A stretch of 45,068 nucleotides of DNA from a virus, in the IMG/VR virus record IMGVR_UViG_3300036719_004321, positions 1 to 45,068 of that record; one strand, 5' to 3'. Below are positions 2,433 to 45,068 of the stretch, piece after piece. Under the pieces are notes generated by a model, which was given only the letters and a program-made list of their open reading frames with translations, searched no databases and had not been told where the DNA came from. The position numbers and the translations under genes are program-made. Every line of letters begins with the position of its first letter. Position 1 is the stretch's first letter.

Positions 2433-2735
2433 ATGAGTATCAACGGCGAAGCCAATCGAGACCTCGCGTACTCCGATCTTGCCATAGAGACTTTGTCCAG
2501 GGCCCAAAGGGCGATCCTAAAGGCTCTGGAGAAAGAAGGATTGACTCGGCATGAGCTTGCGGAAGTTTGCAACATGCCGTTGTCGTCTGTTTGTGGGCGA
2601 GTGAGCGAACTAGAGGAAATCGGGTTGGTCAAAACCACCTCGGAAAAAAAGCTGACACAGCACGGAAAGCCTGCGACGATCGTCGTCAACACGGTTCCAA
2701 GAATGAAGCAAGGCTGGTTGGAACTTGATTTCTGA
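2433..2735 (+). CDS. Small winged-helix DNA-binding protein
   Basis: 100 residues. Residues ~20-75 read as a winged helix: a helix rich in Ala/Leu, then LTRHELAEVCNMPLSSVCGR as a helix-turn-helix with recognition helix, then VSELEEIGLVKTTSEKK as the wing, as in MarR/ArsR-like folds. AAGGAG lies just upstream of the ATG. The gene sits between the coiled-coil gene and two unknown genes in one apparent operon. It could be a phage transcription regulator, but no sequence evidence links it to a specific operator. Confidence 0.75.
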   Translation: MSINGEANRDLAYSDLAIETLSRAQRAILKALEKEGLTRHELAEVCNMPLSSVCGRVSELEEIGLVKTTSEKKLTQHGKPATIVVNTVPRMKQGWLELDF

Positions 2736-3234: not shown

Positions 3235-4116
3235 ATGAAGGTTGGCACGGTCGATCTTATCAAGTTCAAGCGGCTCCAGCGTAGCTTGTCCGAGTCGCAG
3301 CGAGGCATCGTTGGACTTCTGGAACTGCTTTGGGCCGGGACTGCGAAAAACTGCCCGCAAGGCGATATTGGTCGTTTTGAGAACATCGATATTGCCGTCA
3401 TCTGCGATTGGGAAGGTGATCCCGACAAGCTCATTGATGCGCTCGTCGACTGTGGTTGGCTCGATAAATCGGAAGACCATCGACTCGTGGTTCACGATTG
3501 GCACGAGCATTGCCCAACTTGGGTGAAGGGCAATCTAGCCAGCTCTAAAAAGCCCTTCGCGTCGGTGCCTGAATCCGAATCGGACGTCGCTAAGCAGGTC
3601 TCTGAGGAGGATGCTAAGGAGGGGGCTAAGGATGGTGCTAAGGGGGTGGCTAAGGAGGGTGCTAAGGGGGGGGCTAAGCCACCCACTACCAAACCAAACC
3701 AAGCCAAGCCATACCAAGCCCAACCACACCAAGCCGCCCATGGCTGGTTTGGTTGTTCGGTTGTTGGTGGGGAATGTACTTGTGAGGCAAAGGCGGAGAA
3801 AGCCGTTGAAATCGCCAACAAGCTCGTACGTTTGTCTGACCGAAAGCGGCTAAAATACGATCGTGAACTATTTTGGCGATACTCGTGGATCGCAGCAAAC
3901 TGCGACCCTGGGGGCTTCCTCGATGCGTGCGATCGGATCCTCGAACATTCAGTTGATAAACCATCGAGCTATCTCGCAACGGTTGTCCGCAAGATGTTGG
4001 AATTCCATGGCGTTTCAATTAATCAAGTGACGCTGGAGCTATGTCCACCGATACCGCCACCCACCAACGAACAACGGAACGTCCGAATCGATCCAGCAGC
4101 GATCTCCGTTTGTTGA
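3235..4116 (+). CDS. Replication-organiser-like phage protein with Ala-Lys-Gly repeat linker
   Basis: 293 residues in three parts. Residues 1-110 look like the N-terminal domain of phage replication-organiser (DnaT/DnaD-type) proteins: compact, with CDWEGDPDKLIDALVDCGWLD and then VVHDWHEHCP, a phrase typical of that group. Residues ~111-180 are low complexity, first an AK(E/D/G)G repeat, then a Pro/Gln/Lys stretch. Residues ~185-293 form a helical C-terminal domain with an aromatic cluster (ELFWRYSWIAANC). GAGG precedes the ATG. The 3' end overlaps the next HTH gene by 76 nt. A role in replication initiation is inferred from domain style and its position before an HTH gene. Confidence 0.6.
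   Translation: MKVGTVDLIKFKRLQRSLSESQRGIVGLLELLWAGTAKNCPQGDIGRFENIDIAVICDWEGDPDKLIDALVDCGWLDKSEDHRLVVHDWHEHCPTWVKGNLASSKKPFASVPESESDVAKQVSEEDAKEGAKDGAKGVAKEGAKGGAKPPTTKPNQAKPYQAQPHQAAHGWFGCSVVGGECTCEAKAEKAVEIANKLVRLSDRKRLKYDRELFWRYSWIAANCDPGGFLDACDRILEHSVDKPSSYLATVVRKMLEFHGVSINQVTLELCPPIPPPTNEQRNVRIDPAAISVC
3613..3678 (+). repeat. 12-bp GCTAAGGRNGGN tandem repeat (codons Ala-Lys-Xaa-Gly)
   Basis: Five and a half in-frame 12-bp units, each starting GCTAAG, from codon 127 of the replication-organiser-like gene. They are followed by a second low-complexity stretch of CCAAGCC/CCAAACC words to about 3745. In-frame units imply length variation without frameshift; the G runs are prone to slippage. 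Confidence 0.85.
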
Positions 4117-4268
4117 ACGTCAAGCAGCTCGCTCTGCTGCTCGGAGTGTCGGATCGGACAATCAGGCGATGGCGCTCCAACAAGCTACTCCCCAAGCCAT
4201 TGATCGAAAATCATTGGTCGGTATTGCAAATCGAGTCGTGGCAAAAAGCGGACAAAACCGGCCACTAA
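4041..4268 (+). CDS. Excisionase/AlpA-like helix-turn-helix protein
   Basis: 75 residues. LLNVKQLALLLGVSDRTIRRWRSNKLLPKPLIENHW is a MerR/AlpA/excisionase-type winged HTH: the first helix reads the phase, and GVSDRTIRRW is the recognition helix. Such proteins act as excisionases or small transcription factors. The start (ATG 4041) lies inside the preceding gene, in another frame; a later start is possible because the first ~25 residues are low complexity. Its last codons form the left copy of the 37-nt repeat that recurs at 8005. Confidence 0.75.
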   Translation: MSTDTATHQRTTERPNRSSSDLRLLNVKQLALLLGVSDRTIRRWRSNKLLPKPLIENHWSVLQIESWQKADKTGH

Positions 4269-4274
4269 CGGACA
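4238..4274 (+). repeat. 37-nt direct repeat, left copy
   Basis: 34 of 37 positions match 8005-8041, including 28 of the last 29. It covers the last codons and stop of the HTH gene. Each copy contains two CGGACA words 21 bp apart (about two helical turns), one near each end of the conserved 29-nt core. The two copies bracket the membrane-protein/protease cassette. Confidence 0.85.
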
Positions 4275-4381
4275 TGTAGCCCCACCGATATTCTCTTGCC
4301 GGCCGTGTGTGCTAGTCTGCAATCGTTCAAGCGACTCGTAAGCAATTTCGATGTTACCGGCACAAGCGAAGAAGATCTGTC

Positions 4382-4744
4382 ATGAACCAAATTGTTGAAT
4401 GGGCCAAAAGCCGACGATCGTTTCTCACCGCTGCAATCGCATTGGTGTTTGTGTTACTGCGAGAAAAGCTTGGTTTGCCGATCGACGAAGAGACCTCGCA
4501 TACCATCACCAATTCGCTCGTTCTGTGGATCATCGGGGAATCTGCGGGGGCGACAAAGGGCTGGATGCAGCTTGTTCAGAGCCCAAGATTTTGGGCTCTT
4601 GCCGCAGCCATTGCAAATGCAGTGCTTAAGGACAGGCTTAACCTTCCGATCACTCCTGACACCATCCAGCAAGTATTGACTCTCGTCCAAACCCTTTTGG
4701 CCGGATATGCAATTAGACCGCATATCTCTCCAAACACACCGTAA
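4382..4744 (+). CDS. Small membrane protein with internally duplicated domain
   Basis: 120 residues made of two related halves. Residues ~12-55 (FLTAAIALVFVLLREKLGLPID...) and ~68-112 (FWALAAAIANAVLKDRLNLPIT...) share the plan hydrophobic helix, basic/acidic turn, LxLPI, Thr-rich helix, so an ancestral ~45-residue unit seems duplicated. At least two membrane helices are likely. It is the first gene of the cassette and begins 107 nt after the left repeat. Holin-like architecture is possible, but no holin family signature is recognisable. Confidence 0.7.
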   Translation: MNQIVEWAKSRRSFLTAAIALVFVLLREKLGLPIDEETSHTITNSLVLWIIGESAGATKGWMQLVQSPRFWALAAAIANAVLKDRLNLPITPDTIQQVLTLVQTLLAGYAIRPHISPNTP

Positions 4745-4755
4745 GGAATCAAGCC

Positions 4756-5070
4756 GTGGCGAAAAGAAGATTCCCTCGATTTTTCAGTCGTCGCAAGGTT
4801 CGAAAGTTTGCGATCGAGTCGTATGAGGCTGCAAGCGGGGACCACAACGTAGCTAAAGGCTTGTTTGAGGCCCGAGCCGAAAAATACGGCATGGATCCGG
4901 CCACGATTGCCATGCTGATTATTTCAATCATCCGATTTTGGTTGTGGCTCAAAGATCAGGGCTTCCTAAGCAAAGTCCCTCGCGATGTGGGTTACAAGTG
5001 GCTGACCGAAGACAAAGGCTTTTTAAAGGCCTGCGAAGGCTGCGGAATCACGGAGGCTGACGAGCAATGA
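4756..5070 (+). CDS. Basic single-span membrane protein
   Basis: 104 residues, GTG start after AAGGAA. A strongly basic N-terminus (KRRFPRFFSRRKVRKF) is followed by an amphipathic region, one hydrophobic segment at ~residues 53-68 (TIAMLIISIIRFWLWL) and an acidic C-terminus with CEGC. The end overlaps the next start (ATGA), implying coupling. It may be a structural or lysis-associated membrane protein; function unknown. Confidence 0.65.
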   Translation: MAKRRFPRFFSRRKVRKFAIESYEAASGDHNVAKGLFEARAEKYGMDPATIAMLIISIIRFWLWLKDQGFLSKVPRDVGYKWLTEDKGFLKACEGCGITEADEQ

Positions 5071-5342
5071 ACCTGCAATGGATCGGACTTTTGCTGATGC
5101 TTGGCGGAGCAGCGTGGGCCCTTTACGGTCCTGCTCTCAAGACGGTGTCGTTTTTGGATCAAGGCGACGAGCCCAAGACTGATAGACCGGCTGGAACGGA
5201 ATCCAGCCAGCCTATTGGGTCTCGCGTCGAGGCCGTCGCTCATTGCGAAGCTCTGATGCAGTACTTTGAGTCCCAGAACAACAAGACCGGGGCTGACTGC
5301 ATGAGAACCGCAATCGGCAGTATCTACGCCCCGAAGGAGTAA
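5067..5342 (+). CDS. Small membrane-anchored protein
   Basis: 91 residues. A single N-terminal hydrophobic helix (LQWIGLLLMLGGAAWALYG, residues ~3-21) is followed by a polar tail. The start overlaps the upstream stop by 4 nt and the next gene begins 5 nt after its stop, so it is co-translated within the cassette. The helix resembles the anchor of the next protein (MLIGGLLLFLGGG). No catalytic motif seen. Confidence 0.6.
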   Translation: MNLQWIGLLLMLGGAAWALYGPALKTVSFLDQGDEPKTDRPAGTESSQPIGSRVEAVAHCEALMQYFESQNNKTGADCMRTAIGSIYAPKE

Positions 5343-5347
5343 GCGAC

Positions 5348-5778: not shown

Positions 5779-6606
5779 ATGGCAGAGTTCATCATTGATG
5801 ACGACAACTATCGAGATTTCATCCAGGGCGGAAAGGAAACCCAAGGCAACACCTTTGGTCTTGTATACCGCGATCCCAAGCAGTATCCGGTTGGCTCTTA
5901 CGGGGCCCCCGAGTGGGACTTGACTCAACTGCAAATCATCCCGCGATCGGAGTGGTCGGATCGCATCAAGGAGATGAAGCGAACCAAGTCGAGGATCAGC
6001 GACTTGAGAAACATTGCCGATAGAGGCAAGCCTTTTCAAAACCTCGATCAGAACGGCCAAGGGTACTGCTGGACCTATTCGACGGTCCATTCCATCATGC
6101 TTTGGCGAGCCTCGATGGGGCTGCCCTATGTTCGATTATCTGCCCACGCCATTGGATGCAAGGTGAAGAACTACGCAGACCAAGGCGGCTGGGCGGCGCT
6201 AAGTATGGAGTACGTCGCCAAACACGGCGTGCCCTCAGTTGAGTTCTGGAAAGAAAAATCCATGTCTCGATCAAACGACACTCAGGCGACTTGGTTGAAC
6301 GCAGCCAAGTACAAGATCACTTCAGGATGGGTCGAGTTGTCTTCGCCGGTTTACGATCGCAAGATGACCTTTGATCAGTTCGCGACATGCTTGTTGAATC
6401 GAATACCAGTCGCGACCGACTTTTACTGGTGGGGGCATTCGGTCTGCTCGATGGACCTCGAGGAAGTTGAACCAGGATCTTTTGGCGTTCGCATCCTGAA
6501 CTCCTGGAAGAACTGGGGCGAAAACGGTACGGCCGTGCTTCGCGGAGATAAAGCCTTGCCCACAAACGCCGTTGCTCCCCGTGGTATTACCTCCAACGCA
6601 GCTTAA
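5779..6606 (+). CDS. Papain-like (C1-type) cysteine protease
   Basis: 275 residues with a full papain active site in order: oxyanion Gln91 and nucleophile Cys97 in QNGQGYCW (six residues apart, as papain Q19/C25), then His220 in WWGHSVC and Asn241 in ILNSWKNWG (papain NSWG). No signal peptide or pro-domain is obvious; the first ~85 residues are polar and could be a short pro-region. Expected activity is peptide-bond hydrolysis. It sits among membrane proteins in the repeat-bracketed cassette. As no lysozyme, amidase or transglycosylase is recognisable in the window, a role in host envelope breakdown is plausible; virion or regulatory proteolysis is the alternative. Confidence 0.85.
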   Translation: MAEFIIDDDNYRDFIQGGKETQGNTFGLVYRDPKQYPVGSYGAPEWDLTQLQIIPRSEWSDRIKEMKRTKSRISDLRNIADRGKPFQNLDQNGQGYCWTYSTVHSIMLWRASMGLPYVRLSAHAIGCKVKNYADQGGWAALSMEYVAKHGVPSVEFWKEKSMSRSNDTQATWLNAAKYKITSGWVELSSPVYDRKMTFDQFATCLLNRIPVATDFYWWGHSVCSMDLEEVEPGSFGVRILNSWKNWGENGTAVLRGDKALPTNAVAPRGITSNAA

Positions 6607-25387: not shown

Positions 25388-25884
25388 TTATCGAATACGA
25401 ATCACAATCCATCGAAGTATCCATGCTTGAGATGGCGAGGACAATCACGAAGCTTGCCGGGGCGTTGCCAGTTCGGAACTCGAACATGCGTCCCACCATG
25501 CCATTCTTGAAGCAAGTGGCCGAGCTTCTCGCAAGCAAAGGATTGAAGTGCGATACAACGGCGGCTTGGCAGTTTTGGCAGCTCATCACCGAAGCGATCG
25601 ACGCTTACTCGCAAGCGATGGAAATTGAATCCGAAATAGCTTGGGAATATCACATCGACCCAACGCAGCTATCGGAAGAGACCAAGCTGGGGCTAGAACG
25701 CAACATCGTGCGCAACCGAGCAAAGCAACGGTTGGCAAACGGCGACTATTCTCCCACCGATTACGAGGGTGTGTATAACTTAGCACTCTTGGCGACAGGG
25801 GACGAAGCGTACTCGCAGAAACTAAAAACCGAAGCCTTCAAACGCTTCGTCGATTCGCAAGCAAAACGAGGGCAACGAGCATGA
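25384..25884 (+). CDS. Paralogue of the tail chaperone-like protein
   Basis: 166 residues from GTG 25384. Residues ~38-80 align with the 21969 protein (PT..FLK, a Gly/Cys turn, A..F..LI), and the remainder is a helical extension (TEAFKRFVDSQAKRGQRA). The start overlaps the distal tail stop (GTGA) and the stop overlaps the portal ATG. Two related genes flanking the tape-measure/distal-tail pair suggest duplication; it may chaperone the portal or its extension (inference). Confidence 0.6.
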   Translation: MIIEYESQSIEVSMLEMARTITKLAGALPVRNSNMRPTMPFLKQVAELLASKGLKCDTTAAWQFWQLITEAIDAYSQAMEIESEIAWEYHIDPTQLSEETKLGLERNIVRNRAKQRLANGDYSPTDYEGVYNLALLATGDEAYSQKLKTEAFKRFVDSQAKRGQRA

Positions 25885-28800
25885 GTCAGTCATGGGAATT
25901 CGAGACGTACGTTGGGGTTGGAAATCGTCCGACGGGCGATGCGGCAAAAGCCATGACGGTACCGACAAAGGAGAATCCACGCGGAAACCCTCGCACGCAG
26001 CACTATCGCGGTCCTCACTACGTTTATTTCAATCAGCATCGCGATCTTCCACTCTTCACCTTTGAGACTATTCGTGTCATGCTGCGAGATCCGCAGGTTC
26101 GCTTGTGCCTCGCGATGCGAGCTGCCCCGCTTCAATCAGTCGAGTTCGCTTATCAAGATGGAATCGGCGAGGATGGGAAGCCTACTTGGATCCCTGGAGT
26201 CAAAGCTAAGAATCCAGTGGTTGCGGCATGGGTATTACGACAACTCCAAACGATATGGAATAATTACCTACCAGGAATCATGCGATCGCAAGTATGGGGC
26301 TGGGCAGCAGGGGAAGTAACGTTGCGGCTATCTGATTCGAATCTCATTGAAATCGATCAATTGTTGCATCGGCACGCAAGGGATTGCCGCCTTATGGAAT
26401 GGGAGCATGCGGGTACTCCCTGGGGTGTTCAAATCGACAACGTGAAGAACATGGGCGTTGTGCAACTCCCCTTTCCGTACTGCTACTTCATAAACTTCCG
26501 ACCTGAAGACGGGGAGCGATACAGTTGTCCGATTCTGCTCGGAGCCTATTCGCCATGGTGTGACAAGTGGCTTAACGGCGGTGCGCTCGATACTCGACGC
26601 CTGTACATGCACAAAGATGCATACGGCGGCATGAAAGTGGGATACCCTGAGGAATCTGTATTTGTCGAAGGAAACGATAACCCGGTACCAGCAAGGGATA
26701 TTGCTCTGCAAATCGTAGAGCAACGCCAAGCGGGTGGAACTCTCACCTATCCGTCGACGCGCGACGATCAAGGCAACGAGAAGTGGATTATCGCAGAGGC
26801 AACAGTAGCTTCGAATCCCGAACACATTTTGAAGTATCCAAAAGACCTTGATGCGGAAATACGCCAAGGCATGGAGATCCCAGACGGTGCCATTTCCAAC
26901 GACGGCGCTGGATCCTGGGAGGGCAAATCGCTTCCACTCGCAGCGTTCTACAGCGGTCTCGATTCGTGGGTGGTGCAAATTCTTTGCGACATTCGCCGCA
27001 CTTTAGACCCGATCGCCCGAATGAATTTTGGGACCGACGTCGAATACGAGATCACCCATAAACCACTCGCACAATCGGCGATGGAGCAACAGGGACAAAA
27101 GCAAGCTGGCACCGATCAAGGCCAAGCGATGCATGGCGACCCGTCAGGCATTATGAATCCAGCGGACCAAGGCATGCTGCAGCGCATGGGATCACTAGAC
27201 CCCGTCGATGCGGTTGGCCGTGGTGTTCTTAGCGCTTCGTCAATCGTAGAAGCAGCTCGGAGAGCTTTGGATAATGGTGTCTTGAGGCTTTCGTTGAAAG
27301 AATCCGACGAGGGCGAAGACTCGGACGAAGAAGCCCTGGAACGCGCTAAAGCCATCGCGGAAATCCTCGAACACATCTACGGAGACGATGCGGAATCTCA
27401 CTTCGACGAAATGTTCGGTTCGCAGGTCCAAAAAATGGGTTCATGGAACGCCATCGACCATCCGCGAGGACCAAACGGGCGATTCATTCCCAAGTACAGC
27501 GCAGAGGCAGTATCAGCGGCCAAGGATGCCGTCAAGGAATCGCTACAGTCGAACAAGACACCTGAGAGTGCAAAAAAACTGGTCGAGCATTTGTCGTTGC
27601 TGAACGGCAAGCAACTTCGCGAACTGAAACAGGAATACGGTGTTTCGGCAGCAGGAAAGACCAAGCAATCTCTCGTAGAGAAGATCGCAGATCGCCTGGA
27701 TCGAGGGAGACGTACTCCCAAGGATGACGCCGGTACCGAAACTCCCAAGGAAGACGCTCAGGCCTCGAGTGACACTGCTTTGAGCGACACTGCTTTGGCA
27801 GACAAAAGCTCGGAATCCAAAGCCGGGGAACCGAAGGCAAGGGAAAAGAAACCGTTCGTCTATCCAGACGGATCGACGCAGGTCTTCAACGCCGACGGAA
27901 CCCCAGCGGCAACAACGGAAGCATTTTCAAAAGCCGAGGAATCTGGGGCGGATCCACGCGAGGCCGCAAAGGCTGCGGACCAACAAGAAGAAACCAAAAA
28001 GGAGTACGAATTCGCTCGCGACAGCGAAGTAGGCAACCGTGGCGAAGACCTTAAGAATTCAGCTCGACACAAGGTCAACGCTTGGAAAGGGCTAGCATCC
28101 GCCGAAACCGACGGGACAGCCGAAAAGCTTGTCAATCGCGACATGCTCTTGAAGCTTGAACCTCACAATTTGATGGAACATGCAGACCGGGCGCCGTTGA
28201 CGTCCTTGGCCATGCACTTTGCGATGAAAAGTTTTCCGCCAAACCCAGTTTACGGGAAGAACACGAAGAACACGCCCGAGCTTCGCAGTGACTACGTGGC
28301 AGCATATCAGAGCATCAAGGCTAAGGCCGAAGAGATTGCTTCCACTCATGACGATAAAGACTCGATAAAGTCCATTCGTAGACTCCAAAGCCACGTCATG
28401 GGGATTGTCAACGAGCGGAGGAAAGCAAATCGCTTTGACAACCTCGCTAATAACTTGATCGGCTTGGCAAACTCTCTTGAGGTCAGCCGCTATGCAAGTA
28501 AGACGACCACGTATGGCAAGCTCAACGAGTTTGCCAGTGAGCTAAAAACCAAGTACGGAGACGAGTGGACAAACGCTTTCAACGACGATAACACTCCGCA
28601 AGGAATGGAGTCCAAGCGGATCATGTTGGAAAAGGCTGCGGAACACGCAAAGGATGTCATTGAAGGGAAGTCCATCAATGCGACCTTCGGAAAAGAAAGC
28701 AAGACCGGGGCCAAAAGAAAAGATTTTGAGCTTAAGAACCTGTACGGTCAAAAGGCTGAAAGAATGGGCGGGAGGGATCTTTCGTCGATAACTTCGGACC

Positions 28801-31733
28801 CAAACAAAGCAGTCGACCATTTGATAGACGAATATGGTTTGAGGGGCTTTCAGTGGGGCAATTCAGTCACGGATTCAGAGCGGAAACACCATGCAGCCCG
28901 AATGGTTGAGGCCATAGCGGACCTTGCGGACGTCACAGGGCTCCATCCAAAAGATATTTCACTTGATGGGAAACTAGGACTTGCCGTCGGGGCTCGTGGA
29001 CACGGTACGGCAGCCGCGCACTACGAGCCGGGAAACCAAGTGATCAACATGACCCGCAATAGCGGAGTTGGAACCTTCGCCCACGAATGGGGCCACGCCT
29101 TCGATCACATGCTCGGTGGCTTTGGCATTGGCCGCGACGGCGGAAAATATATGTCCGACGTCGACGTTTCCCATACCCACGAAGTTACCCACAAGACGCG
29201 GGGCTATCCTCTCCGAGTCAATGCGGCCACCGCCGAAGCCTACCGAACTCGGGGTGACGATGAGTTTACGGTAAAAGAACTGCCAGACCCAGAAATCAGA
29301 GGAGCCATGGCCTCTTGGCAAGAAGCGGCCAAGCCTTTTATGAGGCGGGTACGGGGCGTGGTATCGAAGATGATCAGAGATGGAAAGCTATCCGAGGGTA
29401 AAAGGGATTATTGGAATAGCTCTATTGAGTGCTTCGCACGAAGCTTTGAAGTTCACGTAAAGAAGCAACTGGAAACCAAGGGCCGAAAAAACACCTATCT
29501 TTCTAGCCTCTCCGATGAGTCTGGCGAAGCTTCCCTATGGCCAACCAACGCGGAAGCCGAGTCCATGGCCGAAGCCTTTGCGGGGCTTATGACCGCATAC
29601 CGACAAAAACGCCACGGACAGGCCGATCCGATCAAGTTCTCACTCTTTGACGTCATCGGCGAAGTAATTCCCGATTCTGATGATTTCGATGAGCTTGCTA
29701 TCGAAGAAAACGAGTCACCGAATTCATCCGGGCAGGTCCACAAGTACGCATGCTTGATGTTTCACCTAACGGAAGATCTTTCAGGCCGCATTCGCGAGTT
29801 CCAAGCCAACATTGCCGATGATCAGCTTGCGTCTGGCGACAGGGAACAAGAGTCGCACGTGACGCTTCTCTACGGGTTCAAGGATGAGGAGTTACAGAAC
29901 GTCTTAGATGCCTTGTCCAATATGCAGGCTCCTTTGGCGACATTCTTCCAGTTAGATGCATTCCCATCAGGTAAGGATGGAGCACCACTGCACGTCTGCG
30001 TCGATTCTCCAGACCTGCACAAGATGTACGCTGAACTTAGAAAGCGTATCCCAGCCGTTTGCACGCATCCGGAATACAAGCCGCATGTCACGATTGCCTA
30101 CATGAATGACGCGAGTTCACTGGTGGGCGCTAACGGTCCAATTTTTGGCGAAAGTCGCGTACTCGATCGAGCATTCATCGCTCTCCAAAGTGGAAAAAAT
30201 ATCGAGGTGACTTTGGGTAAGGCCGATCCGATAAGGATGGGTATTGACGACCAAACCAGAGTTGCTGGAGCCGAGTCAGAGAATGGCGATGAACAGGCAG
30301 AAGCGATCGCGGAAATACTTACGTCGCTCTACGGCGATGACGCCGAAGCCATGTTCGACAAGATCTATGGCATCAAGAGAATGGCATGGGCAGCCATCGA
30401 TCACCCAAGGGGGCCCAATGGGCGTTTCATCGCCAAGAACAGCCCCGAGGCGGCATCCGCTGCGAAGGAAAAGATCAATGAGGCGCTCAATGGCCAAAGG
30501 TCGCCTAGCTCACTGAAGACGGTTACGGAGCACCTATCGATCTTGACTGTCAAGCAGCTACGGGAGATGCAGAAGGAGCATGGTATCCGCGCAGGCGGAG
30601 CGAAACCGCAATTGGTCGCCAAGATCGCCGATCGGCTGCATGGCAAAGTAACTCAGACGGACAGCCAAGCAAGTAAGTTCCACGAAAACGGCACTCCAAA
30701 ACAAGTCAACAACCGCGACATCTACACGGTCCCAACGTCTTCCTTGAAGGTCGACCCAAAGCGATTTCAGTACAAAGTGAAAGACATCGGGGAGGATGGC
30801 GTTACTGGAGAACTCAAGGGAGTTTCCAAGTGGAACCCGGAACTGGCCGGATCGCTATTGGTGTGGCGTGATCCATCCGACGGGCAGGACTACGTGATCA
30901 ACGGACACCATCGCCATGAATTGGCAAGCAGACTCAATGCCGATCACATCAATGCGAGATACATCGACGCGCCAAACGCCAAGGAAGCTCGCGCTCGAGG
31001 GGCATTAGCGAACATCGCGGAAGGCCGAGGATCGGCCATCGACGCCGCAAAGTACCTTCGAGACTCGGGGCAAACCCTTGACCACCTACGCGAAGCGGGG
31101 ATCAGCATGTCCGGGAAACTGGCGTCCGATGCGGTGACGCTTACTGCCCTAAACGATAAGGCATTCCAGAAGGTGACCGAAGGGAGGTTGGATGAAACGA
31201 CCGCGTTGGCCGTCGCAAAGCACCTCAAGGATCCAGCACTTCAGGATCTATTGTTCAAGAAACTTGCTGATCGAGAGACCGAAGGCAAGGACTGGAGTAC
31301 GCGAGAAATCGAGACGGCTGCACGCAAGATGGCCAACGCTGGAAAGGCAACGCAAACGGGCTTCGATCTGTTCGGTGCATTTGAAGATGAAAAATCGACG
31401 TTCGATCAGGAGGTAGAACTTGAATCGTTTGCAAACCGCATGCTTCAGCAGGAAGCCGACGACTACCGAGCCGTGGCCAACAAGCGCCGAGCCAATCGGG
31501 TATCGGAGGCTGGGAACGTACTGGCGATCGACGAAAACGCTAAGCGATCCGATTCGGCAGAGCAATCCGTCAAGGATTTCAATCGAGAAGTTCATCTTCG
31601 GGGCCCAGTAAACGCAGTGATCCAAAAGCACGCGGCAGATCTTCTGTTGGCGAAAACCAAAAAAGAGAAAGAAGCCGTTAAGTCCGCAATGATGGACGAG
31701 TTAAAATTGTCTCTTCGATCCTTTGGAACCTAA
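25881..31733 (+). CDS. Portal protein fused to giant polyvalent tail (LPD1-zincin, 2H phosphoesterase, ParB-like)
   Basis: 1950 residues in one open frame. (a) ~1-430: DUF935/Mu gp29-type portal (VRLCLAMRAAPLQ, EKWIIAEATVASNP, AEIRQGMEIPDGAISNDGAG, WVVQILCDIRRTLDPIARMNFG). (b) ~491-608 and (c) ~1474-1590: a duplicated module of AIAEIL..YGDDAE, W.AIDHPRGPNGRFI, then a SAP/HeH-like helix pair (KQLRE...KIADRL). (d) ~720-1130: a polyvalent-protein region with an LPD1-like stretch (YGLRGFQWGN, LGLAVGARGHG, AHYEPGNQVINM) and the zincin motif HEWGHAFDH (His1068-Glu-Trp-Gly-His1072). (e) ~1288-1465: 2H phosphoesterase with two HxT motifs (His1326-Val-Thr, His1402-Val-Thr). (f) ~1600-1800: ParB-like nuclease with NGHHR (1674-1678) and a helical KorB-like part. 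Polyvalent proteins are known from phages; fusion to a portal is unusual. Confidence 0.88.
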   Translation: MSQSWEFETYVGVGNRPTGDAAKAMTVPTKENPRGNPRTQHYRGPHYVYFNQHRDLPLFTFETIRVMLRDPQVRLCLAMRAAPLQSVEFAYQDGIGEDGKPTWIPGVKAKNPVVAAWVLRQLQTIWNNYLPGIMRSQVWGWAAGEVTLRLSDSNLIEIDQLLHRHARDCRLMEWEHAGTPWGVQIDNVKNMGVVQLPFPYCYFINFRPEDGERYSCPILLGAYSPWCDKWLNGGALDTRRLYMHKDAYGGMKVGYPEESVFVEGNDNPVPARDIALQIVEQRQAGGTLTYPSTRDDQGNEKWIIAEATVASNPEHILKYPKDLDAEIRQGMEIPDGAISNDGAGSWEGKSLPLAAFYSGLDSWVVQILCDIRRTLDPIARMNFGTDVEYEITHKPLAQSAMEQQGQKQAGTDQGQAMHGDPSGIMNPADQGMLQRMGSLDPVDAVGRGVLSASSIVEAARRALDNGVLRLSLKESDEGEDSDEEALERAKAIAEILEHIYGDDAESHFDEMFGSQVQKMGSWNAIDHPRGPNGRFIPKYSAEAVSAAKDAVKESLQSNKTPESAKKLVEHLSLLNGKQLRELKQEYGVSAAGKTKQSLVEKIADRLDRGRRTPKDDAGTETPKEDAQASSDTALSDTALADKSSESKAGEPKAREKKPFVYPDGSTQVFNADGTPAATTEAFSKAEESGADPREAAKAADQQEETKKEYEFARDSEVGNRGEDLKNSARHKVNAWKGLASAETDGTAEKLVNRDMLLKLEPHNLMEHADRAPLTSLAMHFAMKSFPPNPVYGKNTKNTPELRSDYVAAYQSIKAKAEEIASTHDDKDSIKSIRRLQSHVMGIVNERRKANRFDNLANNLIGLANSLEVSRYASKTTTYGKLNEFASELKTKYGDEWTNAFNDDNTPQGMESKRIMLEKAAEHAKDVIEGKSINATFGKESKTGAKRKDFELKNLYGQKAERMGGRDLSSITSDPNKAVDHLIDEYGLRGFQWGNSVTDSERKHHAARMVEAIADLADVTGLHPKDISLDGKLGLAVGARGHGTAAAHYEPGNQVINMTRNSGVGTFAHEWGHAFDHMLGGFGIGRDGGKYMSDVDVSHTHEVTHKTRGYPLRVNAATAEAYRTRGDDEFTVKELPDPEIRGAMASWQEAAKPFMRRVRGVVSKMIRDGKLSEGKRDYWNSSIECFARSFEVHVKKQLETKGRKNTYLSSLSDESGEASLWPTNAEAESMAEAFAGLMTAYRQKRHGQADPIKFSLFDVIGEVIPDSDDFDELAIEENESPNSSGQVHKYACLMFHLTEDLSGRIREFQANIADDQLASGDREQESHVTLLYGFKDEELQNVLDALSNMQAPLATFFQLDAFPSGKDGAPLHVCVDSPDLHKMYAELRKRIPAVCTHPEYKPHVTIAYMNDASSLVGANGPIFGESRVLDRAFIALQSGKNIEVTLGKADPIRMGIDDQTRVAGAESENGDEQAEAIAEILTSLYGDDAEAMFDKIYGIKRMAWAAIDHPRGPNGRFIAKNSPEAASAAKEKINEALNGQRSPSSLKTVTEHLSILTVKQLREMQKEHGIRAGGAKPQLVAKIADRLHGKVTQTDSQASKFHENGTPKQVNNRDIYTVPTSSLKVDPKRFQYKVKDIGEDGVTGELKGVSKWNPELAGSLLVWRDPSDGQDYVINGHHRHELASRLNADHINARYIDAPNAKEARARGALANIAEGRGSAIDAAKYLRDSGQTLDHLREAGISMSGKLASDAVTLTALNDKAFQKVTEGRLDETTALAVAKHLKDPALQDLLFKKLADRETEGKDWSTREIETAARKMANAGKATQTGFDLFGAFEDEKSTFDQEVELESFANRMLQQEADDYRAVANKRRANRVSEAGNVLAIDENAKRSDSAEQSVKDFNREVHLRGPVNAVIQKHAADLLLAKTKKEKEAVKSAMMDELKLSLRSFGT

Positions 31734-40485: not shown

Positions 40486-41154
40486 TTAGGTTGAAGATGG
40501 TTGAGTCCAGAAAAATTCCTCGGCTTGCGAAAAGGCCTTCGAGCCTCTCCGCCCATGGGTTTTTGCGTACATTTCGCACAGGCACGAAAGCATGCGATCC
40601 GATAGTCCACCCAGCGGACCTTGCTTCAACTTCTCGACCATGGAAGCGGCAAAGTCTCCGGGCATGCCGTCGATCGCTTTGATGAGCCACTCATTTGCTG
40701 AGGCGTGCTTTGCTTCTCTGGCCTTCATTTCCGATTCGATCCTGGCTTCGTTAAGCTCGTAGTCGGTTAGGCCACCGTTGACTGCTCGCTGCCGATCGAG
40801 TTCCGCTGCATAGGCAACCCTCTGAGCTTCGCGCTTCGCTTCTTTGATCGCATCCCGCTTGGCCTTGTTGATCTTGGCCATTTCACGTTCAGCGGCTTGC
40901 AGAACCCGATTGTCTGCTCGGTATACCTTCCGAACGCAATCCATTCCGACCTCGAAAGTCTTGCCGTCGCGGCTTTGGATCACGCACTCGTAGCGAATCC
41001 CTTGACCGCAGTACTTGCAACTCCCACCGGCTTGAACGTGACCAGGAGCAGCCGAATAGACATTTTCCCTGACGGCCACAAGCCGGAACGGGGATTGCCC
41101 CAATCCAGCAGACTCGAAAGGGTGTAGCGTCAGAAGTTCGTTCGCGTCAGTCAT
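40486..41154 (-). CDS. First early-operon protein: zinc motif plus coiled coil
   Basis: 222 residues. N-terminal ~85 residues: SCKYCGQGIRYECVIQSRDGKTFEVGMDCVRKV, a four-Cys zinc site of a type seen in phage- and plasmid-borne proteins. Residues ~85-150 are a basic coiled coil (AEREMAKINKAKRDAIKEAK); the rest is a helical domain. GAGGAG precedes the ATG, and a strong sigma-70-like promoter with an operator lies 20-50 nt upstream, so it opens the minus-strand operon. Confidence 0.75.
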   Translation of the reverse strand: MTDANELLTLHPFESAGLGQSPFRLVAVRENVYSAAPGHVQAGGSCKYCGQGIRYECVIQSRDGKTFEVGMDCVRKVYRADNRVLQAAEREMAKINKAKRDAIKEAKREAQRVAYAAELDRQRAVNGGLTDYELNEARIESEMKAREAKHASANEWLIKAIDGMPGDFAASMVEKLKQGPLGGLSDRMLSCLCEMYAKTHGRRGSKAFSQAEEFFWTQPSST

Positions 41155-41173: not shown

Positions 41174-41202
41174 AGTATATCACCTGCATGATAAACCGTA
41201 AA
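41174..41202 (-). promoter_or_regulatory. Minus-strand early promoter
   Basis: On the minus strand, -35 TTTACG (41202-41197), 17-nt spacer, -10 TATACT (41179-41174), an excellent sigma-70 match, 20 nt upstream of the first early gene. The rest of 41155-41225 shows nothing else besides the overlapping operator. Confidence 0.85.
41177..41194. promoter_or_regulatory. Operator 1 (TATCA-N6-TGATA)
   Basis: Plus-strand sequence ATATCACCTGCATGATAA. It is an inverted repeat of TATCA and TGATA separated by 6 nt. It starts 2 nt after the -35 hexamer and overlaps the first three bases of the -10, exactly like operator 2 at 42857. 13 of 18 positions are identical between the two. Confidence 0.8.
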
Positions 41203-41225
41203 GAGTCATCGCATAAATTTTTGAT

Positions 41226-42077
41226 TCATCCAACTTTCGGCGGCAGCGTGCCTTGCCTCAAGCTCGACGACTCGATGTAGTGCTGCATTGCTACTCTGGG
41301 CCCGGAGCGATGGCCTAAGCTTTCGGCGGCGACAACCGCTCCCTCTGTCCGGTACAGCTCTGTGGCATGTGTCTTGCGTAATGTTCCAATGCCTTGCCCG
41401 CGTAGTCGATTAAATCCGATCGCACGAGCTTGGGCAAAGGCAAGCAGCTCGATACGTCTCATTCCGGACTTCGATAGTGGAAAGATCAAGTCGCGTTTCG
41501 GCTCGCGGATCGCTTCCAGAGCTTCAAATGTGGCAGAGGAAATTCTTGCACGATGCAAGGCTTGCGTCTTGCTTTGGACCACCGTTACGGATCCCGAGTC
41601 GAGATTGCACCACTCCAGCCTCCGCAGATCGCTCGGGCGTAGACCTGTGTCGTATCCAGTGCGGACCATTGCTTGGACGAATTTAGCGATCGGTATGCCG
41701 ATGCGTAACCTACCTGGGATCCCCTCACAGGCATCGAGCAACATCTTTACTTGTACCAGGGACCAGCTTTTGACTAGACGCTGAGGGATTTTTGGCCGAA
41801 AAACTCGCCGAGGATGGACATCACAAGCCCAGCCTCTATCAGCGCCAAAACCCCATACTCGCAACAAGGCGAGTCGGTAGTTGGCGACTGTGGTCGAAGC
41901 TTTGTCCTTCAACGATCGGAGAAAACCGTTGACATTTTCGTAGCTAAGGTCCTCGCCATTCGCCTCTCGCCCAAGGAACAATCCAAATTTTCCGCAAACT
42001 CGGTAATATTGGTCCAGGGTGACCTCGCGCAGATCGCACTCCATTGCGATTGCATCAACAATTTCAGCAATTCGCAT
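41226..42077 (-). CDS. int: Tyrosine recombinase integrase
   Basis: 283 residues. The N-terminal SAM-like core-binding region (VTLDQYYRVCGKFGLFL...) leads to a catalytic domain with Arg147 in DTGLRPSDLRR, Lys170 in VQSKTQ, Arg234 in GTLRKTHATEL, His256 in ESLGHRS and the nucleophile Tyr267 in MQHYIE. The usual His of the H-x-x-R box is Gly231 here, a known but less common change. The gene is immediately next to the tRNA-derived attachment site, as expected for an integrase that uses it. It ends 24 nt from the minus-strand operon's promoter region. Confidence 0.93.
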   Translation of the reverse strand: MRIAEIVDAIAMECDLREVTLDQYYRVCGKFGLFLGREANGEDLSYENVNGFLRSLKDKASTTVANYRLALLRVWGFGADRGWACDVHPRRVFRPKIPQRLVKSWSLVQVKMLLDACEGIPGRLRIGIPIAKFVQAMVRTGYDTGLRPSDLRRLEWCNLDSGSVTVVQSKTQALHRARISSATFEALEAIREPKRDLIFPLSKSGMRRIELLAFAQARAIGFNRLRGQGIGTLRKTHATELYRTEGAVVAAESLGHRSGPRVAMQHYIESSSLRQGTLPPKVG

Positions 42078-42116
42078 GATAAAACCTACCTTTCGCCGAA
42101 ATCTAGCTTATGAGTA

Positions 42117-42178
42117 CCGGATTGCTAATTCGGCGTAGGGTTAACTCCTTACCGCAGGTTCGAATCCTGTCCTCTCCG
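42117..42178 (+). other. attP/att core: 3' part of a tRNA-Ser(GCT) gene
   Basis: From the anticodon arm onward the sequence folds as the 3' portion of a class II tRNA. The anticodon stem is CCGGA/TTCGG with loop TTGCTAA (anticodon GCT, 42124-42126). It is followed by a ~20-nt variable arm, T-stem GCAGG/CCTGT with loop TTCGAAT, acceptor CCTCTCC and discriminator G. No 5' half (GGAGAGG and D-arm) precedes it; the upstream sequence is the integrase leader. This is what a phage carries to rebuild a host tRNA-Ser on integration. Phage genes flank both sides, so it is attP in free phage DNA or one att site between two phages. Confidence 0.85.
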
Positions 42179-42180
42179 CT

Positions 42181-42238
42181 TTCGAAAACGTGGGTGTTCC
42201 GGCCATTGGAACGTGCTACCCCGCGTTTTCGAATTTTT
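42181..42238 (+). terminator. Intrinsic terminator after the tRNA fragment
   Basis: Inverted repeat TTCGAAAACG (42181-42190) with CGTTTTCGAA (42224-42233), plus inner pairs GGGT/ACCC and TTCC/GGAA, followed by TTTTT (42234-42238). It may end transcription from a host tRNA-Ser after integration, or insulate the int-side from the rightward operon. Confidence 0.85.
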
Positions 42239-42299
42239 CCCAAGTCGGCGAAGCCTTGAAAATTTTTATGCCTTGGACGATAATTGGAGCATGATTCAA

Positions 42300-42509
42300 A
42301 TGCTAGACAAAAATCTGATCACGACGCTTCAAGCAGCAGACATGATAGGTTGCACGCAGAATCACGTTCGACTCATGCTCAAGCGTGGGCTGCTTCGTGG
42401 CGAAAAGATCAGCGGCAACCTGTGGCTTTGCGACAAGCGACATGTCGATCAGGTTGCTAAGCGACCGTCATCCGTGGGTCGGCCTCGTGGGGATAAAAAA
42501 AAGAAGTGA
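42300..42509 (+). CDS. HTH protein (excisionase-like), paralogue A
   Basis: 69 residues. ATG 42300 is chosen because GGAG lies ~11 nt upstream; longer readings run into the terminator. ITTLQAADMIGCTQNHVRLMLKRGLLRGEKISGNLW is a MerR/excisionase-type winged HTH, then a basic tail (SVGRPRGDKKKK). Next to integrase and attP, it is the best candidate for the excisionase. Its DNA and protein resemble the next gene over the HTH. Confidence 0.75.
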   Translation: MLDKNLITTLQAADMIGCTQNHVRLMLKRGLLRGEKISGNLWLCDKRHVDQVAKRPSSVGRPRGDKKKK

Positions 42510-42596
42510 TTTGGTAGCGGTTTAAGCGTTGCCTCAAACAACTGCCTCGTTGCGGGCGTGATTCCTTCGTCAAGTAAATCCCCCAGCAGATTGCCC

Positions 42597-42752
42597 ATGA
42601 TCGACAAGAACTACTGCACTGTCTCCGAAGCAGCGGAAATGATTGGTTGCACTAAGAACCATGTGCGACTGTTGTTGACTCAAGGGAAGCTGCGCGGAGG
42701 CAAAATTACGGAACGCTTGTGGCTTGTCGAAAAAAACACGTCGCGGAAATAG
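42597..42752 (+). CDS. HTH protein paralogue B with possible -1 frameshift
   Basis: 51 residues in the zero frame: VSEAAEMIGCTKNHVRLLLT and RLWLVEKN. It matches paralogue A up to LWLVEK, then the zero frame stops early. At 42730-42736 the slippery heptamer context A AAA AAC lies in the correct phase (codons AAA AAC). A -1 slip gives KHVAEIAKKPYKTGRPRGV, which aligns with KRHVDQVAKRPSSVGRPRG of paralogue A, ending at the stop at 42803-42805. So either programmed -1 frameshifting yields a 69-residue protein, or the gene is a frameshifted relic. The upstream Shine-Dalgarno is weak. Confidence 0.65.
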   Translation: MIDKNYCTVSEAAEMIGCTKNHVRLLLTQGKLRGGKITERLWLVEKNTSRK

Positions 42753-42848
42753 CCAAAAAGCCCTACAAAACAGGTAGGCCACGCGGAGTTCGGCCAAAAT
42801 CGTAGGGTAGCAAACTACCTTCTCCAAAAAAAAAAGCGTCGAGTAGCC

Positions 42849-42877
42849 TTGACGAAATATCACCATGGTGATATATT
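42849..42877 (+). promoter_or_regulatory. Rightward early promoter
   Basis: TTGACG (42849-42854), 17-nt spacer, TATATT (42872-42877); near-consensus sigma-70. Transcription would start near 42884 and run into the csrA-recE operon with a ~90-nt leader. The leader has an AGGGCA/TGCCCT hairpin and a GGAG Shine-Dalgarno. Confidence 0.85.
42857..42874. promoter_or_regulatory. Operator 2, perfect palindrome ATATCACCATGGTGATAT
   Basis: An 18-bp perfect palindrome sitting between -35 and -10 of the rightward promoter, overlapping the first three -10 bases. A dimeric repressor bound here would block RNA polymerase. Its twin is operator 1 at 41177. No repressor of the expected size is recognised inside the window. 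Confidence 0.85.
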
Positions 42878-42974: not shown

Positions 42975-43184
42975 ATGGCTGTGAAAACCGGGGCTCTTTT
43001 GTTGTCAAGACGACAAACCGAGTCGGTTCGTATTGTGTTCGGGGGCCAAACGTTGCTCCTGACTGTCGCAGAAATTGTTGGCCGCAAGGCCAAACTACTC
43101 TTCGAAGGTCCAGAGACTTTTGAGGTATCTAGGGTTGAAGCAAATCGCAAGTCGCGTCCCGAAACGAACGGGGGTGACAAGTGA
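42975..43184 (+). CDS. csrA: CsrA-like RNA-binding protein
   Basis: 69 residues. The core GALLLSRRQTESVRIVFGGQTLLLTVAEIVGRKAKLLFEGPETFEVSRVE follows CsrA/RsmA (L.LtRr.gEsi.I...i.itV.ei.g..v.LgieAP..v.v.R.E). Family members bind GGA motifs near Shine-Dalgarno sites and change translation. The N-terminus is ~7 residues longer and the start context shows CTGGAGATT in the leader, a potential autoregulatory GGA. First gene of the rightward operon; stop overlaps the next GTG. Confidence 0.85.
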   Translation: MAVKTGALLLSRRQTESVRIVFGGQTLLLTVAEIVGRKAKLLFEGPETFEVSRVEANRKSRPETNGGDK

Positions 43185-44113
43185 GCACTGTCTTCACACA
43201 TGATCGGGACTACGAGGTCCCGGCTGGTCTACATCCGGACATTCCATTCGAGGAGTATCGCGCATGGCCAGCTTTGTCAAACTCGACGCTGAGTCTAATG
43301 CGGCGATCGCCACTTCACTGTAGATCCGGTTTCGGTCCTGCGACCGAAGCCATGAAGCTGGGCAGCCTAGCGCACTGTGCTTTGCTGGAGCCTCTGGAAA
43401 TTATCAAGCGGTATGTTTTCATGCCGAACTATGCGAACCATCCTGATAACACCACGAAGGATGGCAGTCGATCCTATTCGTCAGCGACAACCTTTGTGAA
43501 GAACAAGGAGGAGGAGTTCACGAAGCTGCACCACGACAAAGAGATTGTCTCCGAGCAGTTCTACAATCAGGTGCTTGGTATGTCTCGTGCGTATCACCGA
43601 CACGAGTTGACGGCATCCTTGATCCGCAACGCCGAGAGGGAACTTTCCGCTCTCTGGTGGGACGAGGAGCTAGGAGTGTGGTGTAAAGCTCGGTTCGACG
43701 TGTTCCAGAATTCGTCAGACGGCCCGAGACACATCCTCGACGTCAAAAGCACTGTCGACGCGCGATCATTCGAACGAACGATTGCGAACTGGGGCTATCA
43801 CCGTCAAGCGGCCTTCTACTTGCGAGGCATGTGGGCCACGACCAAGAAAGTCTGTGGGGGCGATGAGTTCTACTTCACGGCCATCGAAAAGACTGAGCCC
43901 TATGGGATCCGGACAGCTCCAATGGATTTTGAAGCGATCCAGACCGGAAATTGCGAAATCAAAGAGCTAGTCGCTCTGTATCGCGAGTGTTCAACAAATG
44001 ATCGTTGGCCGGGCTATGACAGCCCGGAAGCTTGGTCCTTACCAGCGTGGTATGGCGAGCGAGCCGAGGATTCCGTCGAGCTTATGATCGACGGCGAAGT
44101 GCTGGAGGTATAA
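43181..44113 (+). CDS. RecE-like PD-(D/E)XK exonuclease
   Basis: 310 residues from a GTG that overlaps the CsrA-like stop. Matches phage exodeoxyribonuclease VIII-like (DUF3799) proteins: FEEYRAWPALSNSTLSLM, MKLGSLAHCALLEP, ALWWDEELGVWCKARFDVF (acidic strand), GPRHILDVKSTVDARSF (D-x-K motif) and GYHRQAAFYLRG (Q-x-x-x-Y). It would resect double-stranded DNA 5'-3' for phage recombination and replication. No separate Redbeta/RecT is seen; the next small gene is a candidate partner by position only. Confidence 0.9.
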   Translation: MSTVFTHDRDYEVPAGLHPDIPFEEYRAWPALSNSTLSLMRRSPLHCRSGFGPATEAMKLGSLAHCALLEPLEIIKRYVFMPNYANHPDNTTKDGSRSYSSATTFVKNKEEEFTKLHHDKEIVSEQFYNQVLGMSRAYHRHELTASLIRNAERELSALWWDEELGVWCKARFDVFQNSSDGPRHILDVKSTVDARSFERTIANWGYHRQAAFYLRGMWATTKKVCGGDEFYFTAIEKTEPYGIRTAPMDFEAIQTGNCEIKELVALYRECSTNDRWPGYDSPEAWSLPAWYGERAEDSVELMIDGEVLEV

Positions 44114-44119
44114 GCAGCC

Positions 44120-44443
44120 ATGCGAGTTACTGAACTATGTCCGTCTCCACACCTAGAAGCCCTGGATGTCGGAGACAAGATCGGTGACGAATGTACCGTC
44201 ACGATAAAGGGCGTCCACATCGCGGACGTTGGCCAGGAGAAGGTCAAAAAGGGGGTTGTTGTGTTCGATGAGTTCGATCGCGGCTTGGTTCTGAACAAGA
44301 CCAATTCGCGGATGATCGCTTCGATCCATGGAGCCCAAACCGATTCATGGAAGGGTAAGAAACTCGTCCTCTATCGTTCGGAGACGAGCTTCCAAAACAA
44401 GACGGTCCCCTGCATCCGCGTGAAGGAGGCGGTCAAGAAGTAA
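44120..44443 (+). CDS. Conserved small phage protein downstream of RecE-like nuclease
   Basis: 107 residues. The pattern IKGVHIADVGQEKVKKGVVVFDEFDRGLVLNKTN, then WKGKKLVLYRSETSFQNKTVPCIRV occurs in phage proteins next to recombination genes and may be an OB-like DNA-binding fold; unproven. GGAGG lies ~10 nt before the ATG. It ends just before the structured non-coding stretch. Confidence 0.65.
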   Translation: MRVTELCPSPHLEALDVGDKIGDECTVTIKGVHIADVGQEKVKKGVVVFDEFDRGLVLNKTNSRMIASIHGAQTDSWKGKKLVLYRSETSFQNKTVPCIRVKEAVKK

Positions 44444-44785
44444 GGGATCCATGCTCGGCAGTCGAGGGGAGAGGACCGGCTGTCGAGAGTGTGAGGATCG
44501 GCGGCGCAGTGAATTGCGCTTTGCGACAAGCGGCAATCGACAAGAGAAGCGGGCAACCGCAGAGACTCAAGCGAAAAGTGGGGTAAACACTTCGCATCCC
44601 AGAGGCCGTCTCAGGTGAAAACCCTGACCGATCCTTTCATCCGGTGGCAGCAAATTGCTGGTGATGCCAGCAGCGAGCGAAGGAAGCCAGCTTGGCCACA
44701 GTAATAGGCTTGGCACTTGAAGGCAGCAAGTTTGACCTAGGTAGACGCGATAAGCCCTGGGAACTGTCAGAAAACTCAGTCGCAA
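44444..44785 (+). ncRNA. Structured non-coding RNA candidate next to a tRNA
   Basis: 342 nt without a convincing gene but dense in inverted repeats: GCGCA/TGCGC (44505-44520), GCGG-GCAA-CCGC tetraloop (44549-44560), GAGAC/GTCTC (44562-44566 with 44608-44612) enclosing GCGAAAAGTG/CACTTCGC, TCAGG/CCTGA, TGGCA/TGCCA, GCTGG/CCAGC, ACTTG/CAAGT and GGCTT/AAGCC. The order and nesting suggest a folded RNA of several domains ending at the tRNA. It is not tmRNA and no group I intron core could be matched. Large ornate RNAs beside phage tRNAs (GOLLD, ROOL) are the nearest precedent, by context only. Confidence 0.5.
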
Positions 44786-44857
44786 GGATCGGTCGGTTAG
44801 TGGTAAGCCAGCGTCCTATAAAGGGCGTCCTCGCAGGTTCGATTCCTGCCCGGTCCT
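44786..44857 (+). tRNA. Phage tRNA with enlarged 8-nt anticodon loop
   Basis: Cloverleaf: acceptor GGATCGG/CCGGTCC (with one T-G pair), D-stem GGTT/AGCC with loop AGTGGTA, anticodon stem GCGTC/GGCGT (two G-T pairs) with loop CTATAAAG, variable CCTC, T-stem GCAGG/CCTGC with loop TTCGATT, discriminator T, no encoded CCA. The anticodon loop is 8 nt rather than 7, so the anticodon cannot be assigned (ATA, TAT or a four-base reading). Possible frameshift-suppressor, decoy or non-coding function. Lies directly after the structured RNA stretch. Confidence 0.75.
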
Positions 44858-44916
44858 TTTGCCAACCCATACCGGAGCGGCGTAATCGAGCGTACTACAG
44901 CTAACAAGGGTTCAGC

Positions 44917-45068
44917 ATGTCAACATCTGGTTTTTTTCATTCGATGATTGATTTTGCAGACAAGTTTAGCGACTTGGTGCAAGATCAAGCCAAATGGTCG
45001 CAAGACACATTTGGTAGCGATTTAGAACGAGGTCCTTTGGGTGCTTTGAAGCATTTGGAAAAAGAAGC
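44917..45068 (+). CDS. DUF550 / MazZ-like dATP/dGTP pyrophosphohydrolase, 3'-truncated by window edge
   Basis: First 50 codons only. FADKFSDLVQDQAKWSQDTFGSDLERGPLGALKHLEKEA matches the N-terminus of DUF550 proteins (QxxWSxxTFG...GPLGxLKHLxKEA). The family includes MazZ, a MazG-like enzyme that removes dGTP/dATP, known from phages with 2-aminoadenine DNA. AAGGG precedes the ATG. Active-site residues are beyond the edge. Whether the phage uses modified bases cannot be told; no PurZ gene is in the window. Confidence 0.75.
   Translation, partial: MSTSGFFHSMIDFADKFSDLVQDQAKWSQDTFGSDLERGPLGALKHLEKE

Follow-up and report, generated by a model that had tools for sequence, protein, structure and literature searches.

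Two divergent early promoters of this virus carry the same short dyad, which raises the question of whether they are parts of one switch and, if so, which protein would act on it. The stretch of DNA that was analysed, hereafter the window, is the 45,068-bp IMG/VR record IMGVR_UViG_3300036719_004321; its relevant features are collected in Table 1. An initial annotation of the locus had placed TATCA-N6-TGATA in the same register in the leftward promoter (PL) and the rightward promoter (PR), and had put a csrA and a recE gene under the control of the latter.

Table 1 Features of the switch region and candidate regulators in the window.
Feature	Position	Strand	Remarks
222-aa protein	40486..41154	minus	First gene after PL; gone from the sister phage
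PL, leftward early promoter (predicted)	41202-41174	minus	TTTACG-N17-TATACT; kept in the sister phage
Left operator, 16-mer	41178..41193	plus (as written)	TATCACCTGCATGATA; one TATCACC half-site and one degenerate half-site
int, tyrosine recombinase	41226..42077	minus	Pfam PF00589, E=5e-10; relatives at 36-45% in Pirellulaceae
attP core	42124..42169 (tested stretch)	plus	3' part of tRNA-Ser(GCT); exact match in 13 Pirellula/Planctomycetota genomes
HTH1 promoter-like site	42256..42284	plus	TTGAAA-N17-GATAAT; without a clear operator copy
HTH1	42291..42509	plus	72-aa winged HTH, probably excisionase family (HTH_17), C-terminal GRPRG; candidate operator-binding regulator and/or excisionase
HTH2	42597..42752	plus	HTH1 paralogue, 57% identity; 51 aa in the window, intact 69 aa in the sister phage
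PR, rightward early promoter (predicted)	42849-42877	plus	TTGACG-N17-TATATT
Right operator	42857-42874		ATATCACCATGGTGATAT; perfect 18-bp palindrome
csrA-like gene, first in PR operon	42975..43184	plus	PF02599 26.2 bits, just under the 27-bit cut-off
RecE/exonuclease VIII-like nuclease (DUF3799)	43181..44113	plus	NF007259 E=2.6e-21
107-aa protein	44120..44443	plus	68% identity to a protein in a Pirellula prophage fragment that also has the exonuclease
100-aa winged-HTH protein	2433-2735		Rival candidate
75-aa HTH protein	4041-4268		Rival candidate

Twin sites in PL and PR

Both exact sites were located inside the predicted promoters, which are of the sigma-70 type, in the same register. Read on the minus strand, the left operator is TATCATGCAGGTGATA (41193-41178), and its arms pair in the outer 5 bp only; the PR spacer carries TATCACCATGGTGATA at 42858-42873 on the plus strand, within a longer sequence that an inverted-repeat test confirmed as the perfect palindrome of the initial annotation. 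The spacing given there (2 nt after the -35 hexamer, with a 3-nt overlap of the -10) is correct for the 18-bp palindrome, whereas the 16-mer, in which TATCA begins 3 nt after the -35, extends 2 nt into the -10. In each right arm, TGA doubles as the TGn of an extended -10. Family searches placed a csrA-like and a RecE-like exonuclease gene downstream of PR, in agreement with the earlier gene assignment. PL is separated from PR by 1.65 kb, a distance that holds int, attP and two HTH genes, and each promoter has one operator, with no clusters within the window. The label "compact pL/pR-type switch" was therefore dropped, considering this distance, the single site per promoter and the lack of a detectable CI/Cro-type gene (see below).

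One alternative is that AT-rich promoter hexamers gave rise to the palindrome by chance. As TGATA overlaps the -10, the pattern is not independent of the promoter, and the post hoc choice of motif also favours a chance reading. Against this, a third-order Markov model predicted 0.0125 exact copies per window and none of 400 simulated windows held two, although these odds are somewhat flattering because the motif was picked after inspection of the sequence. A search for more copies of TATCA-N6-TGATA, as had been suggested, recovered only the two known exact copies in the 45,068-bp record, together with one further site with 1 mismatch (15024), remote from PL and PR. The best ungapped match between the PL and PR regions is the whole 28-nt promoter-operator block, a similarity that was equalled in only 2/300 shuffles. 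Taken with the preservation of the arms in a sister phage whose hexamers have drifted (described next), this makes a chance origin extremely unlikely.

The single sister phage that was found (IMGVR_UViG_3300032249_000988) has an integrase 97% identical to that of the window. The 123-bp repeat at the ends of its 41,222-bp contig indicates that this genome is most likely complete and circular. The initial annotation had made its case depend on sister phages sharing the motif, and this one has both sites in the same places. The left operator is identical and PL is kept, even though the first gene after it is absent. In the right operator (TATCACCAGGGTGATA), both 7-bp arms are kept and the central dinucleotide alone is changed, while the PR hexamers differ (-35 TTGACG to TTGCTG, which is weakened; -10 TATATT to TATACT). 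The alignment shows that selection acts on the site rather than on the promoter. The twin-operator early switch is thus real and conserved, and the shared site, in the same register in both divergent early promoters, makes the two sequences candidate operators of one repressor. Viral contigs searched with the integrase, the exonuclease and the HTH protein yielded no relative beyond the one sister phage; TerL relatives were near-identical copies or fragments, all without the switch region, and a TerL scan of genome contigs gave no match.

Host assignment and candidate regulators

The 13 genomes with an exact attP core are all Pirellula or Planctomycetaceae/Planctomycetota MAGs, and the tRNA-like sequence at attP runs on to about 42179. 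As the core is that of the tRNA-Ser(GCT) of these 13 Pirellulaceae genomes, the host of this temperate virus is a planctomycete of the Pirellula type. The host itself was considered as the source of the regulator, as regulators of the host, LexA among them, serve some phages. Across the 13 candidate host genomes (~76 Mb), TATCACNNNNGTGATA matched once, within a CDS, and the combined promoter and site pattern was found in 0 of 241 Pirellulaceae genomes. These results rule out a host regulon and, given the absence of the site from host promoters, indicate that it is phage-specific; a host transcription factor recruited by the phage is accordingly a very unlikely binder.

A second possibility is a true CI/Cro-type repressor that has diverged beyond recognition. 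The TATCACC half-site is the half-site of lambda operators, dyad symmetry and a size of 16-18 bp are typical of HTH dimers, and an unrelated phage with TATCAC-N4-GTGATA sites (L006/G001) encodes an HTH_3 protein. However, lambda operators are 17 bp long and come in clusters of three, whereas single sites of 16 and 18 bp are present here, and a search for HTH_3 in all six frames, run on the window and on the complete sister, found nothing over the cut-off, nor did an HTH_3 search of a related integrated prophage (in genome G112). Family searches of the switch-flanking genes, the replication region and the minus-strand operon likewise returned no XRE/CI, S24 or ribbon-helix-helix repressors. We consider this explanation improbable.

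The initial annotation had stated that the repressor gene is not recognised. For a gene of the CI/Cro type this agrees with the HTH_3 and family searches, but comparison with other elements (next section) makes two tandem genes between attP and PR, HTH1 and HTH2, good candidates, and thus better ones for the missing repressor than had been available before. Both encode winged-HTH proteins with an AT-hook-like GRPRG tail; the start of HTH1 was set at the ATG following TTGGAG. By Pfam HTH_17, the sister's HTH2 scores 31.1 bits against a cut-off of 27 and HTH1 falls below it at 21.5 bits, and both HTH1 and HTH2 are just under the cut-off of TIGR01764. A profile of HTH1/HTH2-type proteins (A3) matches Pukovnik Xis in the PDB (E=1e-7). 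As a single-sequence fold of HTH1 was too poor for use, we relied on an AlphaFold2 model built on 14 sequences (pLDDT 82.7), which has a beta-alpha-alpha-beta-beta-alpha winged helix without an obvious dimerisation domain. Its first fold matches are Pukovnik Xis and BldC, and RacA, RdfS and a P2 DNA-binding protein (4lhf), which we take to be Cox, are also among the matches; the E-values are weak (best E=0.016). HTH2 stops early in the window owing to a 1-nt difference from the sister in an A-run (42720-42752), a frameshift that may be a real truncation or an assembly error. Elsewhere, a single 146-aa ORF beside a tRNA-Leu (L150, G059:C3, reverse strand 4063-4500) contains two HTH-AT-hook units and is a natural fusion of an HTH1-HTH2-type pair.

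Shared promoter motifs in related prophages

Genes of the HTH1/HTH2 type are encoded beside the int and att of a tyrosine-recombinase element in the window, in the G112 prophage and in relatives adjacent to tRNA genes. The G112 element is integrated in a tRNA-Asp with a 45-bp flanking repeat. At one end, its HTH-AT-hook gene precedes a winged-HTH gene, a CsrA-like frame and genes for a RecE-like exonuclease and a RecT-like protein, and at the other end lies the gene of an integrase 44% identical to that of the window, so that the circularised element has the order int, att, HTH, csrA, exo, as in the window. The promoter before its HTH gene contains TTGTAATTGTCCCGCGTCCAGTTACAAT and the promoter after it TTGCAATTGTCCCGCATTCTGGTACAGT, a pair that was matched as well in 0/300 shuffles. 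A second G112 element, at a tRNA-Ser, has the same layout, and its twin motif, taken by itself, did not reach significance. The corresponding pair of G089 (tRNA-Leu) is TCTACGATAGTGTGTAAA and TCTACGATAGTGTAGAAA (0/300 shuffles), the second belonging to a long palindrome.

A wider search of the order recovered more HTH-AT-hook genes, many of them just downstream of tRNA genes (beside the tRNA/attL). Over 16 loci, which were selected by HTH similarity and for some of which the gene starts are approximate, the upstream and downstream promoters of the same locus matched with a mean score of 10.25 compared to 8.06 for mismatched pairs (permutation 1/5000), and scores of at least 12 were reached by 6/16 same-locus pairs compared to 5/240 mismatched ones. 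For this test we relied on the same-strand comparison, as the two-strand score of one locus (L188) came from a 19-bp inverted repeat outside the promoter. In that locus the promoter regions flanking the HTH gene (4180-4262 and 4470-4560) are inverted copies of each other (GCCGTTTGTGACAACGCCC...AGTTTATGC(A/G)ATA), and the twin site may therefore have the opposite orientation. About half of the 16 loci are without a shared twin motif.

Of 8 motif pairs, 4 have exactly one copy that forms a perfect inverted repeat, with arms of at least 7 (TATACAATCTTTTGTATA, TATTGCGGTGTCGCAATA, ATTTACGATAATCGTAAAT, GATTTCTACGATAGTGTAGAAATC), compared to 61/4000 background windows. One palindrome paired with one degenerate copy is also the pattern of the window, with the palindrome at PR and the degenerate copy at PL. 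By the inverted-repeat test used, the shared motif of L109, L110, L189 and L201 is non-palindromic. The motif is specific to each element, and those of the relatives are unrelated in sequence to TATCACC. Other integrase relatives in Pirellulaceae have no palindromic operators in their int-adjacent promoters.

A proposed regulatory model and its parallels

On balance we lean towards an HTH1/HTH2-type protein as the repressor that would shut both early promoters through their spacer operators. A phage-encoded protein, likeliest HTH1 (and its paralogue HTH2), would bind both sites. As the site takes up the 17-bp spacer and extends into the -10, binding would block RNA polymerase, and covering the spacer would be expected to shut PL and PR together, that is, to repress rather than activate them. 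The related prophages suggest a common arrangement in which two promoters with a shared motif flank the att-adjacent gene, one presumably serving the regulator and the other the early operon. The twin site before the HTH gene would there provide negative autoregulation in addition to early-gene repression. In the window, the second operator is at PL and not at the regulator's own promoter, so the leftward and rightward early genes would be co-controlled while the regulator escapes autorepression. As there is no clear site in its promoter, expression of HTH1 would be unrestricted, in keeping with a maintained repressor. We infer a role in lysogeny and/or excision, and HTH1/HTH2 may also be the excisionase. 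Short-spaced direct repeats of the kind expected of Xis sites (~10 bp apart) were not found in 42078-42300, a search that degenerate sites could escape. A degenerate operator at the HTH1 promoter was also considered and was not significant in a shuffle comparison.

Several observations count against HTH1 as the repressor. Its own promoter in the window has no clear operator, unlike those of the relatives; several of the sites are palindromic, whereas known excisionase-type regulators use direct repeats; HTH2 is truncated in the window; HTH1 has no obvious dimerisation domain; the shared motif is missing from about half of the loci, non-palindromic in four others and different in sequence from TATCACC in the relatives; and the E-values of the fold matches are weak. 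The first of these favours an alternative in which another phage DNA-binding protein binds the operators and HTH1/HTH2 act as excisionase only. Other small phage proteins of unassigned function may be the binder, and most minus-strand genes are without any family match, which favours the same alternative and makes an unrecognised small protein of the minus-strand operon a further candidate. Two HTH proteins encoded near the start of the record were also considered: the 100-aa winged-HTH protein, which is conserved in both phages, and the 75-aa HTH protein, which has weak HTH_3 similarity. Both genes, however, are far from the sites, winged-HTH proteins of the 100-aa kind also occur in replication/early regions of phages without TATCACC sites, and the twin motifs of the relatives flank the HTH_17 gene rather than either of these genes. 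We regard this alternative as rather unlikely.

If HTH1 or HTH2 is the binder, it would probably act in the manner of Xis, Cox or Apl and repress the two early promoters by occlusion, and its nearest functional parallel would be Apl. Phage 186 also has a CI repressor, while in this phage none was found. As is proposed for HTH1, 186 Apl, P2 Cox and P4 Vis, which serve both as excisionases and as regulators of the lysis-lysogeny decision, are small HTH proteins that act at att and early promoters. The excisionase Apl binds at att and also in the pR-pL region, where it represses the two promoters, its sites being tandem direct repeats between face-to-face promoters (PMC7498355); here, single dyad sites are located in two divergent promoters 1.65 kb apart. 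Pukovnik Xis also binds tandem repeats, and on direct repeats the known regulators of the excisionase type form head-to-tail filaments (PMC7498355). Pukovnik Xis (PDB 4j2n) is the closest sequence-profile match to the HTH1 group and, together with Streptomyces BldC (6ama), the closest fold match, to which HTH1 adds its GRPRG tail and a tandem paralogue. The lambda OL/OR system shares the paired operators in two divergent early promoters and the TATCACC half-site, but the promoters here do not form one compact region, each has one operator (16 or 18 bp, not 17 bp), no CI/Cro gene was found and the candidate regulator adjoins attP; a lambda-like label would fit by analogy only. MerR-family regulators also use a dyad site in the -35/-10 spacer, and the winged-HTH fold of HTH1 is MerR-like. 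MerR-activated promoters, however, have long spacers of 19-20 bp compared to the ordinary 17 bp here, and HTH1 lacks a dimerisation helix or sensor domain.

The open literature that was searched yielded no account of a repressor of immunity or of a lysis-lysogeny switch in a phage of planctomycetes. For this locus, the host has now been assigned, and a sister genome, operator sequences and a named candidate for the regulator are available. The comparison also yields a prediction across prophages, namely that the att-adjacent HTH protein binds the motif common to its two flanking promoters, with the motif varying from element to element. More broadly, it is conceivable, if doubtful, that an excisionase-type winged-HTH/AT-hook protein at the attachment site is the sole immunity repressor of planctomycete temperate phages, and that its targets are paired palindromic operators that diverge fast. 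In that case a single small protein, with no CI-type repressor involved, would tie its own level and the silencing of early genes to the excision of the prophage. The proposed model, if right, would widen the Apl/Cox theme from accessory regulator to possible sole repressor, and would supply a phylum in which genetic tools are scarce with promoters that are well characterised and repressible.

Similar sites were seen in other phages. Three with the same promoter and site pattern (L004, L005, L006) were rejected as relatives, as their gene content is unrelated. In L006 (IMGVR_UViG_3300017971_000486), TTGACG-gca-TATCACATCAGTGATATAAT at 5330-5345 has the same register as here, and a second site, TATCACAGGTGTGATA, follows 806 nt on (6136-6151); this phage, which is the one with the HTH_3 protein, may use the same type of operator independently. 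The viral contig L261 has two TATCACC-N2-GGTGATA sites 69 nt apart (4831-4846 and 4900-4915), one of them within TTGCAA-N16-TATAAT. TATCACCNNGGTGATA alone was rejected as a marker, as it is scattered over 96 viral-contig stretches, and 0/79 of those newly fetched encode relatives of the switch region or the marker proteins.

Elsewhere in the window, a stretch of ~3 kb (44443-45068 and 1-2432) separates the 107-aa gene from the 100-aa winged-HTH gene, and in the sister phage ~350 bp take its place. This stretch holds a DUF5131 protein, a tRNA-like sequence at 44785-44858 and a repeat-rich 514-aa protein, within whose ORF tandem 54-bp repeats (1595-1854) encode coiled-coil units of the QAARDALAKQQREQEERE type. 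Finally, a single 1,950-aa ORF at 25881-31733 looks portal-type at first and then continues through several further segments, and may be a fused head/portal gene.
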